From IMG/VR virus record IMGVR_UViG_3300027777_000015, positions 1 through 31,143 of that record: DNA of 31,143 bases, one strand, 5' to 3'. Made by a program: the position numbers and the translations under genes. Origin of the DNA: a virus. Shown here piece by piece: positions 3,015-22,691 of the stretch. The notes under the pieces are model-generated. The model was not told the DNA's origin. It searched no databases and was given only the letters and a program-made list of their open reading frames with translations. Position 1 is the first letter of the stretch, and each line of letters starts with the position of its first letter.

Positions 3015-3269
3015 ATGATACAAATACAACCTATAATCGTGCCAACAAAAGGCGAAGGAACAATCTTCCAAATTGACGCTTTAAACTTTCCAATGAATCC
3101 AACATCTGTGACTTTCTATTGGCAAGTTTTATCAGTTGCAGACGAAACTTACACATCAATTTTGCAAGGCAATCTAACAATGGATGCTGAAACTTATGCT
3201 AACTGGAATAACGATGACAATTTTGTAATCAATTGGGCGTGTAATTTGCTTAATTTTGTAATCATATGA
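3015..3269 (+). CDS. Small fibre-associated protein, 84 aa (unknown)
   Basis: An 84-residue protein (MIQIQPIIVPTKGEGTIFQI at the N-terminus) starting two bases after the fibre stop. It has alternating hydrophobic residues suggesting beta strands (VTFYWQVLSV), an acidic middle (NWNNDDNF) and no membrane segment or signal peptide. The last codons overlap the next ATG at 3266. Similar small proteins often follow fibre genes in phages of this group. A fibre-cap or attachment role is possible but unproven. Confidence 0.65.
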   Translation: MIQIQPIIVPTKGEGTIFQIDALNFPMNPTSVTFYWQVLSVADETYTSILQGNLTMDAETYANWNNDDNFVINWACNLLNFVII

Positions 3270-11332: not shown

Positions 11333-11464
11333 ATGAAAAAACAACAAATTTTAAACAACATTGAACTTTTAAAACAAGCATTAAAAGACAAAACAATTAG
11401 CGTAAATGATTATTCAACTTTGTACTTTACGTATTCACAACAATTAAAAAAATTGGGGCTTTAA
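11333..11464 (+). CDS. Small protein, 43 aa (unknown)
   Basis: A 43-residue, mostly helical, basic frame (MKKQQILNNIELLKQALKDK at the start, QQLKKLGL at the end) begins 22 bases after promoter P3. No motif was recognised. A GC-rich inverted repeat covers its stop codon. The good promoter spacing and a plausible helical product support a real gene, perhaps a regulatory peptide. Confidence 0.55.
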   Translation: MKKQQILNNIELLKQALKDKTISVNDYSTLYFTYSQQLKKLGL

Positions 11465-11472
11465 TTAGCCCC
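11455..11472 (+). terminator. Weak hairpin at the end of the 43-aa gene
   Basis: GGGGCT (11455-11460), TTAATT, AGCCCC (11467-11472) form a six-base GC-rich stem, followed by TTTAATAAC. The T-run is poor, so this is a partial terminator or an mRNA end-protecting structure between the 43-residue gene and the next one at 11489. Confidence 0.45.
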
Positions 11473-12206: not shown

Positions 12207-12220
12207 ATAAACTATATTTG
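12189..12220 (+). promoter_or_regulatory. Host-type promoter P4 for the kissing-loop RNA
   Basis: CTTG (12189-12192), 20 bases, TATATTTG (12213-12220). The -33 part lies in the end of the preceding gene. Expected initiation near 12225 coincides with the first base of the GTTAAG stem of the RNA that follows. Confidence 0.75.
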
Positions 12221-12224
12221 TATT

Positions 12225-12319
12225 GTTAAGTGAGATGTCAGATATCTCGATACTTTAACCACTTTTACCCCGTTGAATTTGTTGCAATCTGACTGCTACA
12301 TTTTTGATGGGGTTTTTTT
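12225..12319 (+). ncRNA. Structured RNA/leader with complementary 7-nt hairpin loops
   Basis: About 95 nt from promoter P4 to an intrinsic terminator, with no open frame inside. GTTAAG (12225-12230) pairs with CTTTAAC (12253-12259, one bulge) around hairpin 1: GAGAT, loop GTCAGAT (12237-12243), ATCTC. Hairpin 2 is the terminator: ACCCC/GGGGT at its base and GTTGCA/TGCTAC (one T-T mismatch) at its tip, with loop ATCTGAC (12287-12293). The two 7-nt loops are perfect reverse complements, so an intramolecular kissing complex, or a dimer, is expected. It ends just before the gene at 12325 and the replication genes, so it could be an attenuator or riboswitch-like leader, or a free small RNA. I match it to no known RNA family. 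Confidence 0.65.
12267..12319 (+). terminator. Intrinsic terminator of the kissing-loop RNA
   Basis: ACCCC (12267-12271) pairs with GGGGT (12309-12313), and the stem is extended inside by GTTGCA/TGCTAC. The T-run covers 12313-12319. The stem is long and imperfect and may depend on the state of the apical loop. The next gene starts at 12325. Confidence 0.65.
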
Positions 12320-12324
12320 ATGAA

Positions 12325-12522
12325 ATGAATTTTAAAACAAAAACTACTGTAAAAAACAATTTTGTCGTAATCGATGTATTTCAAGACAATGAATTTTGGC
12401 ACACTTATGATTTTCGCATTGAGAAAATTGAACAATTTTTAAAACAAATATCACATAAACGATGGGGTACTGTTGAGAATTTATTAGAAATTAAAACATC
12501 TACCAGTTATGGCAATATTTAG
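12325..12522 (+). CDS. Small protein, 65 aa (unknown)
   Basis: This 65-residue frame starts at ATG 12325 (MNFKTKTTVKNNFVVIDVFQ). A longer version from TTG 12304 would lie in the terminator hairpin, so I reject it. The product looks like a small strand-rich domain followed by a helix (RIEKIEQFLKQISHKR). No motif was recognised. It overlaps the replication gene by 14 bases. Being directly after the terminator-bearing leader, its expression may depend on readthrough. Confidence 0.55.
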   Translation: MNFKTKTTVKNNFVVIDVFQDNEFWHTYDFRIEKIEQFLKQISHKRWGTVENLLEIKTSTSYGNI

Positions 12523-13201
12523 AAAAATTCATACATCATTTTGGAGTGATACATTTATTCAAGACCTGGATAATGAACATCGATTATTTTATTTATATCT
12601 TTTGACAAATGAACGCACTAAACAATGTGGCATATACGAAATCAGTAAAAAACAAATGTCTTTTGATTTAGGATACAGTATAGATAGAGTATCTAAACTT
12701 ATTAAATACTTTATAAAAATAGGTAAAATTCTATATTCCGAAGATACAAAAGAGATTGCTTTAAAAAATTGGAACAAATATAATGGTTCTTCAAGTCCAA
12801 AAGTTGTAAGTTGCATACAATCAGAACTTAAACAAATAAAAGATAGAGTATTGATAGAGTATGTAAATGGTATATATACTGCATCACAAGAAGAACAAGA
12901 ACAAGAACAAGAAGAAGAACAAGAAAAAGAAGTATTTGATATTAGTGTATTTGAAGAATTTTGGAATTTGTATGAAAAGAAATTAAACAAAGAAGAAAGT
13001 TTAAGTGCATTTAAAAAAATAAAATCAAATGAGTATGATTTAATTAAAAACCATATTCCTATTTTCGTAAAACAATTTAAAGACAAACAATTTCAACCAT
13101 ACTTTTCAACATACTTAAATAAAAAAAGATGGCAAGATGAAGTTGAAGTAAAAAAACCAATAGCACCAAGAATAGAAAGACAAGCAACATTAGATGAATA
13201 A
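12509..13201 (+). CDS. Replication initiator / helicase-loader-like protein
   Basis: This 230-residue protein begins with a winged-helix-like domain (MAIFRKIHTSFWSDTFIQDL; LTNERTKQCGIYEISKKQM; GYSIDRVSKLIKYF, to about residue 90). It then has a Glu/Gln-rich linker (127-141) and a C-terminal domain starting FEEFWNLYEKK (148-158). This plan, a wHTH followed by a flexible linker and a DnaD/DnaB-loader-like end, is common in phage replication proteins located just before DnaB. It probably binds the origin and recruits the helicase. It overlaps the helicase gene by eight bases. Confidence 0.7.
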   Translation: MAIFRKIHTSFWSDTFIQDLDNEHRLFYLYLLTNERTKQCGIYEISKKQMSFDLGYSIDRVSKLIKYFIKIGKILYSEDTKEIALKNWNKYNGSSSPKVVSCIQSELKQIKDRVLIEYVNGIYTASQEEQEQEQEEEQEKEVFDISVFEEFWNLYEKKLNKEESLSAFKKIKSNEYDLIKNHIPIFVKQFKDKQFQPYFSTYLNKKRWQDEVEVKKPIAPRIERQATLDE

Positions 13202-14417
13202 TTATTTAGAAGAAAATGTAGTAGGAGCATTTATAATGTCGGACTACGCAAAGACAAAACTACCAAGTATAAACCCGAACTGGTTTAATGAGTTCAACAA
13301 AAGAGTTGTAACAGTTATGCAGCAACTTTATTTAGATTCTAAACCAATTGCACTACATACTTTGTTCCCATTTTTTAAAGACAAAGCATTTGAGTTGTCG
13401 GAGTTTACCCGAAAATACTATTCCGATGCCACCATTGAATATGATTTGTTGCAAATGGAAGTAATGTACAAACGCAAAAAGATAGTTCAGGATATACAAA
13501 ATTTAGATTTAGATTGTGATCTACACGAATTGCAAAACAAACTTGAAATTATAAACCAAGAAAGTAGGGTAAGTTTAAAAAACCAAGTAGTACCAATGAG
13601 TAAAATCGTAGGTAAAGTTTTAGACGAATTACAAGTTAGAATTGAACGTGGAAATAATTTAGAAGGACTTTCTACTGGGTGGAGATACTTGGATAAATAT
13701 ATCGGTGGATGGAACAAAGGGAATTTAGTTGTCATAGGTGCAAGACCAGGAATGGGAAAAACTGCACTTGGTTTAAATTTCTGCATAGAAGGTTGTCCAT
13801 TTGCAAAGTATGTTTTTGTTTCAGTTGAAATGAGTAACGAAGAATTAGCTAAAAGACAAATCAGTTATTTTAGCAAAGTTGAAAACTATAAAATTAGAAA
13901 TGCCACAATGAGTTTAAAAGAAGTTGAAAACATAAGTAAACAACTTTACAACCAAGAATACGACTACGATCTAATAGATAGCAAAGACAATAATGTTTTT
14001 AATATCATATCAATGTTGAAACTACAAAAGGCAAAAAAGGGTTTAGACGTGGTTGTAATCGATTATCTTCAAAAGATGGATGCTGGGGAACGAGATACAC
14101 GAAAGAACGTTTCTGTGATAAGCACAGCACTAAAAAACTTTGCACGTGAAAGTGGTATTACTGTTATTGCATTGGCACAATTAAATCGTGACGGCAAAGA
14201 CGATAGACCACAATTAACGGATTTGAAAGAATCAGGACAAATAGAACAAGATGCAGACGTAGTGTTATTCCCTTTTAGACCATCTTATTATTTAGATGTC
14301 AAACCCGATATTGAAGAAGATGCAGAATTGATTATTGCAAAAAATAGACACGGACAATGCACGGATATACCAGTTACATTTGAAGGCAAGTACACAAAAT
14401 ATACAGAAAGAATATGA
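13194..14417 (+). CDS. dnaB: DnaB-like replicative helicase
   Basis: This 407-residue protein has an N-terminal helical domain (1-120) and a RecA-type motor: Walker A GARPGMGKT (182-190), FVSVEMS (208-214), Walker B VVVIDYLQKM (286-295), then IALAQLNRDG and LTDLKESGQIEQDADVV with the downstream hexamer motifs, and IAKNRHG near the end. It unwinds DNA as a hexameric ring at the phage fork. Length is slightly below cellular DnaB because the N-domain is short. It is coupled to the loader-like gene upstream and overlaps the methyltransferase by four bases (ATGA). Confidence 0.92.
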   Translation: MNNYLEENVVGAFIMSDYAKTKLPSINPNWFNEFNKRVVTVMQQLYLDSKPIALHTLFPFFKDKAFELSEFTRKYYSDATIEYDLLQMEVMYKRKKIVQDIQNLDLDCDLHELQNKLEIINQESRVSLKNQVVPMSKIVGKVLDELQVRIERGNNLEGLSTGWRYLDKYIGGWNKGNLVVIGARPGMGKTALGLNFCIEGCPFAKYVFVSVEMSNEELAKRQISYFSKVENYKIRNATMSLKEVENISKQLYNQEYDYDLIDSKDNNVFNIISMLKLQKAKKGLDVVVIDYLQKMDAGERDTRKNVSVISTALKNFARESGITVIALAQLNRDGKDDRPQLTDLKESGQIEQDADVVLFPFRPSYYLDVKPDIEEDAELIIAKNRHGQCTDIPVTFEGKYTKYTERI

Positions 14418-22545: not shown

Positions 22546-22691
22546 GTTCTTTCTTTCGTATCTTGTTAACATCGGTGTACCCAGATGTAAAACGAGTGCT
22601 ATTGGTCTCTGAAGAAAAGGGAACACGGGCAACTGCAAGATAAGTTGTATTCAATTACCCTCGTAGATTAAACCAACTACGGGGGTTTTTT
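22546..22691 (+). ncRNA. Structured RNA with three-way junction and pseudoknot
   Basis: About 146 nt from promoter P5 to an intrinsic terminator without a supported reading frame. TATCTTG (22559-22565) pairs with CAAGATA (22636-22642), closing a domain with hairpin ACATC/GATGT (22569-22573, 22584-22588) and a stem AGTGC/GCAACT (22595-22599, 22629-22634, one bulge) topped by TCTCT/AGGGA (22606-22610, 22618-22622). The first hairpin's loop, GTGTACCC (22575-22582), can pair with GGGAACAC (22619-22626, one mismatch), a pseudoknot that competes with the upper stem. TTGGT (22602-22606) is complementary to ACCAA in the terminator loop. I recognise no family. It may be a small regulatory RNA or a leader. 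Confidence 0.6.
22658..22691 (+). terminator. Intrinsic terminator of the second structured RNA
   Basis: CCCTCGTAG (22658-22666) pairs over nine positions (one G-T) with CTACGGGGG (22677-22685) around a ten-base loop, followed by six Ts (22686-22691). Confidence 0.88.

Follow-up and report, generated by a model that had tools for sequence, protein, structure and literature searches.

A leader RNA with mutually complementary hairpin loops ahead of phage replication genes: a candidate self-paired transcription attenuator

Directly ahead of the replication genes in the window, by which we mean the whole 31,143-nt stretch of viral DNA analysed here, two hairpins carry 7-nt loops that are exact reverse complements of one another, as an earlier note on this DNA had pointed out and as the sequence confirms. 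The locus raises the question of whether this match reflects a real RNA pairing and, if so, what such a pairing does at the entrance to a replication operon. A description of such an RNA was not found in the open-licence literature. The data described below point to a previously undescribed control of when the virus copies its DNA, and provide a concrete hypothesis for how carrier phages time or limit replication.

Anatomy of the leader and its place before the operon

The features of the element and of the genes behind it are collected in Table 1. The −7 box of Flavobacterium covers positions −12 to −5 (PMC9723704), and the same offset in the window puts the predicted +1 at 12225. Transcription is thus predicted to start at the first base of hairpin 1 (P1), the position that the earlier note had proposed, and the leader RNA would be about 95 nt long. 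The note had further read hairpin 2 (P2) as an intrinsic terminator. This assignment holds, as the P2 stem has a G+C-rich base and leads into a T-run of the transcribed strand, correctly placed for an attenuator; a simple terminator scan missed P2 because of its internal loops. The element RNA folds at −28.6 kcal/mol as compared to −14.6 kcal/mol in shuffles (z −4.7; 0/200 shuffles). In the minimum-energy fold of the window RNA, hairpin 1 closes two extra weak pairs (G–U and U–A) and leaves a 3-nt loop; the predicted 7-nt loop 1 is supported by the homologues rather than by the single-sequence fold of the window. Elsewhere in the window, a terminator-like hairpin with a T-run (CCCTCGTAG...CTACGGGGG TTTTTT) is located at 22640-22666, with an end near 22691 and without a kissing partner, and a minus-strand terminator-like site lies between gene blocks at 11455-11472.

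Table 1 Features of the leader element and of the adjoining genes in the window
Feature	Position	Strand	Basis or remark
−7 promoter box TATATTTG	12213..12220	+	TAnnTTTG, Bacteroidota sigma-A type; from sequence
Hairpin 1 (P1)	12225..12259	+	fold and covariation
P1 outer stem	12225-12230/12253-12259	+	fold
P1 inner stem, GAGAT/ATCTC	12232-12236/12244-12248	+	covaries, 95.6% of cells paired
Loop 1, GTCAGAT	12237..12243	+	reverse complement of loop 2; kissing-helix covariation
Linker between P1 and P2, A/U-rich, single-stranded	12260..12266	+	lengthens if the P1 outer stem opens
Hairpin 2 (P2), intrinsic terminator stem	12267..12313	+	ACCCC...GGGGT base, internal loops; fold and covariation
Loop 2, ATCTGAC	12287..12293	+	exact reverse complement of loop 1; kissing-helix covariation
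Terminator T-run, seven T	12313..12319	+	sequence
First operon gene, 65 aa, no assigned function	12325..12522	+	ATG about 5 nt past the T-run
Replication initiator / DnaD-like helicase loader	12509..13201	+	phrog_6251 E 1e-47, phrog_1701 E 3e-37
DnaB-like replicative helicase	13194..14417	+	phrog_19 E 8e-74; PF03796 E 6e-69

The element was expected to stand ahead of replication genes, and the initiator followed by DnaB is indeed found downstream. Among the related loci described in the next section, a TAnnTT[TC]G box is located within 50 nt upstream of loop 1 in 92/95 elements, and the first substantial reading frame mostly begins 5–12 nt past the start of the T-run, though the first gene itself varies widely. 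Another promoter would not fit into such a spacing. With the terminator placed immediately before the first start codon, transcripts of the operon, whether they originate from its own or from any upstream promoter, must cross the terminator, and the replication genes would need readthrough. A homologous initiator is encoded within 3 kb in 92/99 elements. The other seven are found upstream of operons with an initiator of a different family or a more diverged one, where a DnaB-like gene usually comes next; examples among these seven include initiators of the DUF6291, DUF1376-like and Lin1244 types.

Two carriers illustrate the position further. A contig of a Saprospiraceae MAG (L142) holds one element directly upstream of the initiator and, at 3083-3150, a second terminator of the kissing-hairpin type (loops GTAGGAG/CTCCTAC, −41 kcal/mol) that is unrelated in sequence and stands directly upstream of a primase-helicase (Zn_ribbon_DnaG, Toprim, DnaB_C). 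In the isolate Tenacibaculum phage JQ (L066:5620-5740), the element lies upstream of an initiator relative and has 10-nt loops, AGCATCCTAC/GTAGGATGCT. As an isolated and named carrier, this phage makes the element testable in culture.

Distribution and covariation of the element

The kissing-loop element recurs across about 100 phage contigs. An exact 17-mer search recovered the whole element in ten viral contigs, plus two chance matches; some of the ten carry other downstream genes, and one is nearly identical to the window. Many further elements were found at loci near relatives of the initiator protein, where the loops differ yet remain exact reverse complements. Because searching for complementarity itself would bias the result, both loops were replaced by N in the construction of two covariance models. 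These loop-masked models matched 123 places with 74 distinct sequences, and the loops were perfectly complementary over 6–10 nt in 74/74 distinct matches, which comprise 22 loop pairs. A strict scan of 121 loci (769 kb) gave 97 elements on the plus strand, none on the minus strand and none in shuffles; since the scanned loci overlap, the number of independent elements is lower than 97. The claim that the loop match exceeds chance is borne out by both approaches. Two of the loop-masked matches, L082 (GAGCAG/CTGCTC) and L091 (GGGCAG/CTGCCC), are absent from the 7-nt scans because their loops measure 6 nt. One clear element was present in each of the seven long genome records examined, and the spacing between the loops is held at 45–59 nt across elements. 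A negative correlation between linker length and stem length, considered as evidence for kissing in cis, turned out to be an artefact of stem parsing and was discarded.

Searches of Rfam 15 gave no match in the window at the gathering threshold and none at E ≤ 1 in five diverse homologous loci, while a permissive search with the element alone returned only sub-threshold miRNA-like and sRNA noise. This agrees with the earlier note, in which no known family had been recognised. Most members are metagenomic contigs, and we infer from the promoter type and a few named relatives that the host phylum of the carriers is Bacteroidota. In 395 sampled Bacteroidota genomes, searched with strict filters and without a positive control, the element had no match, and a comparable element was not found in Firmicutes prophages with a related initiator.

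Two loci show related structures. A variant at L123:2870-3010 lacks hairpin 1; in it, a segment of the terminator hairpin forms the reverse complement of the predicted RNA 5′ end, GCTAACAATG. A further copy of this 10-mer spans the initiator start codon (GCTAACA-ATG), which offers the terminator segment a second possible pairing site. At L059:1430-1560, a TATAAT-type box is followed by an element-like structure with a 9-nt pairing, ACTTCCCCT/AGGGGAAGT, and a distant relative of the initiator is encoded downstream; this locus may lie outside Bacteroidota.

Covariation was analysed in an alignment of 18 distinct main-type members, in which 97.9% of all cells pair. In P2, 97.4% of cells are paired and two-sided changes are seen in 9/13 pairs. 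The kissing helix is Watson–Crick in 126/126 cells of the 18 members, with no G–U pair; its changes are two-sided in 43 cells and one-sided in none. The covariation score of the helix is 0.894 vs 0.223 when shuffled, and drops to ≤0.153 when slid. The proposal of a real RNA with loop-loop pairing is decisively supported by these 43 compensatory changes in homologues, and a helix free of G–U pairs suggests that strict matching matters. The stems of the same alignment contain 48 G–U and no A–C pairs. As the stems tolerate G–U and not A–C, the plus-strand RNA is the molecule under selection. At the level of comparative sequence analysis, this establishes an RNA with two hairpins and a kissing helix, its strand and its place before the operon.

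An element acting as DNA, with the inverted 7-mers as an origin hairpin or a binding site and no role for the RNA, is strongly disfavoured by the same data. Proximity to initiator genes and loops devoid of G–U pairs would be in keeping with such a site, but the stem pairs are those of a plus-strand RNA, the promoter before and the T-run after the hairpins are fixed on one strand, and a loop spacing of 45–59 bp matches no helical repeat.

Loop diversity and possible modes of action

Identical P2 arms of 20+20 nt are combined with three different loop alleles, GTAGGAT, GTCAGAT and GTCGGAT, and each allele is matched exactly by its partner loop. In a pairwise comparison of 18 related sequences, made without a rate model, four of the five divergence bins show a larger difference in loop 1 than in the remaining RNA (e.g., 0.30 vs 0.16 and 0.39 vs 0.26), even though each loop change has to be matched in the partner loop. 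The excess is modest, about 1.5–2 fold, and absent in the most diverged bin. The predicted kissing energy is −8.9 kcal/mol (sd 1.0), as compared to −6.2 kcal/mol (sd 2.5) for random genomic 7-mers. Loops that vary more than any other part of the RNA, and yet stay perfectly matched and constant in strength, would be read as a specificity code. The pattern is suggestive, as a changing loop sequence at steady pairing strength is what would be expected of a specificity determinant.

The reading we favour, at about even probability, is a self-paired transcription attenuator of the phage replication operon that has phage-specific loops and also acts between copies. Transcription of the leader would start at 12225, most transcripts would stop at P2, and the replication genes would be made only when RNA polymerase passes this hairpin. 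The 7-bp loop-loop helix would set the frequency of readthrough, with the loop code read within one RNA and also between RNA copies. Short RNAs released from many phage copies would then kiss nascent leaders and shift termination, and the outcome would be a phage-specific copy-number feedback in which loop pairing probably serves as copy sensing. As to the sign, our guess is that intramolecular kissing strains the terminator and allows readthrough, and that intermolecular kissing permits termination. By inspection, no alternative antiterminator stem was seen.

The linker length permits both intra- and intermolecular kissing. As ROOL RNA shows covarying kissing loops that are intermolecular (PMC12286853), loop covariation alone fits pairing within and between RNAs alike. 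A switch that acts in cis only, in which the loops kiss within the same nascent RNA and form a folding checkpoint with fixed or factor-dependent termination, is possible but rather unlikely. The loop spacing is kept to 45–59 nt, the linker can bring the two loops of a single molecule together, and the element is single-copy per phage genome, all consistent with such a switch. It leaves unexplained, however, why diversity is highest in the loops and why several alleles sit on an unchanged terminator. Action between copies is favoured because a cis-only fold hardly accounts for this diversification.

Within the favoured attenuator, it is tentatively proposed that one short RNA is target and effector at once, an allele-specific attenuator through which a phage gauges its own copy number and either recognises competitors or ignores them. 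With the same reserve, the 7-nt loop code may in that reading diversify like plasmid incompatibility types and gate the replication operon. The natural, strictly matched loop alleles also represent ready-made orthogonal pairs for studying the effect of kissing loops on termination.

An extra target of the loops showed no positional peak within 3 kb and no consistent extra copies in seven genomes; third sites numbered 20 vs 12.1 expected for loop 1 and 8 vs 9.2 expected for loop 2. This lack of an enriched third site bears on the idea that the terminated RNA is itself the product, be it a dimer or multimer, a regulator or an RNA with another role, and that its location is mere synteny. We consider this improbable. 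Its own promoter and terminator and a well-conserved structure would suit a stand-alone small RNA, the self-complementary loops permit multimers, and in L123 the initiator start codon is a further possible partner of the terminator segment. Still, the element keeps its place before the replication operon despite replacement of the initiator, and it ends just before the first ATG.

Slightly less probable again is an immunity RNA similar to CI of satellite phage P4, where the short RNA of a resident phage would silence the replication operon of an incomer with the same loops. Logic and place are the same as in P4, i.e., a self-complementary leader upstream of replication genes, and the loop alleles resemble immunity or incompatibility groups. 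Conversely, an integrase and a repressor were not found among the scanned window proteins (the window record may be incomplete), and the strictly filtered search of the 395 sampled Bacteroidota genomes mentioned above gave no match.

Comparison with known RNA regulators

Plasmids and satellite phage P4 already offer examples of RNA-controlled termination of replication initiators, in which a separate antisense or processed RNA is used. In pT181 and pIP501, the initiator mRNA is attenuated by a counter-transcribed RNA (PMC5703833), and a kissing-hairpin interaction is described for pT181 (PMC3753616). Common to these plasmids and the element is a terminator-like leader structure directly upstream of a replication initiator gene or operon. 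Their partner is an antisense RNA complementary to the leader, whereas here both partners, of 6–10 nt, lie on one RNA strand. A counter-transcribed antisense effector of the pT181/pIP501 type was considered and rejected on the basis of promoter signal only, as minus-strand −7 boxes are not enriched (within 150 nt downstream, 3/95 elements vs 10/95 for the control region).

In P4, the CI RNA pairs with two sites in the leader, and premature termination keeps the replication genes off (PMC4825925). Complementary segments inside the same leader before replication genes are found in both systems. P4 employs a processed RNA and two target sites (seqA and seqC), while the element fits two hairpin loops into about 95 nt, uses its second hairpin as the terminator itself, and has no Rfam match.

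The kissing of complementary 7-nt loops, supported here by covariation, is also the recognition step of ColE1 RNAI/RNAII. These two RNAs are transcribed from opposite strands and regulate a primer; in the element both loops are on the same strand, and a terminator takes the place of the primer. The suggestion of a ColE1-like pair in the strict sense was therefore not upheld, as there is no antisense signal and the complementarity is one-stranded and confined to the loops. Kissing loops also occur in phi29 pRNA, a homo-oligomeric phage RNA. ROOL and GOLLD belong to the same class of homo-oligomeric phage RNAs, and covarying self-complementary loops are described in phage RNAs of this kind (PMC12286853). 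All of these are larger or packaging RNAs, and an intrinsic terminator ahead of replication genes is not part of their design.

Metagenomic viral contigs often carry this family, which stays in place when the initiator gene is swapped. Because a separate antisense RNA shows no sign and a match in Rfam 15 is absent, the element is assigned to a new RNA family. It would be a new variant of replication-gene attenuation, outside the pT181, pIP501 and P4 systems, in which a single short leader supplies both complementary partners, one of them as the loop of the terminator hairpin.
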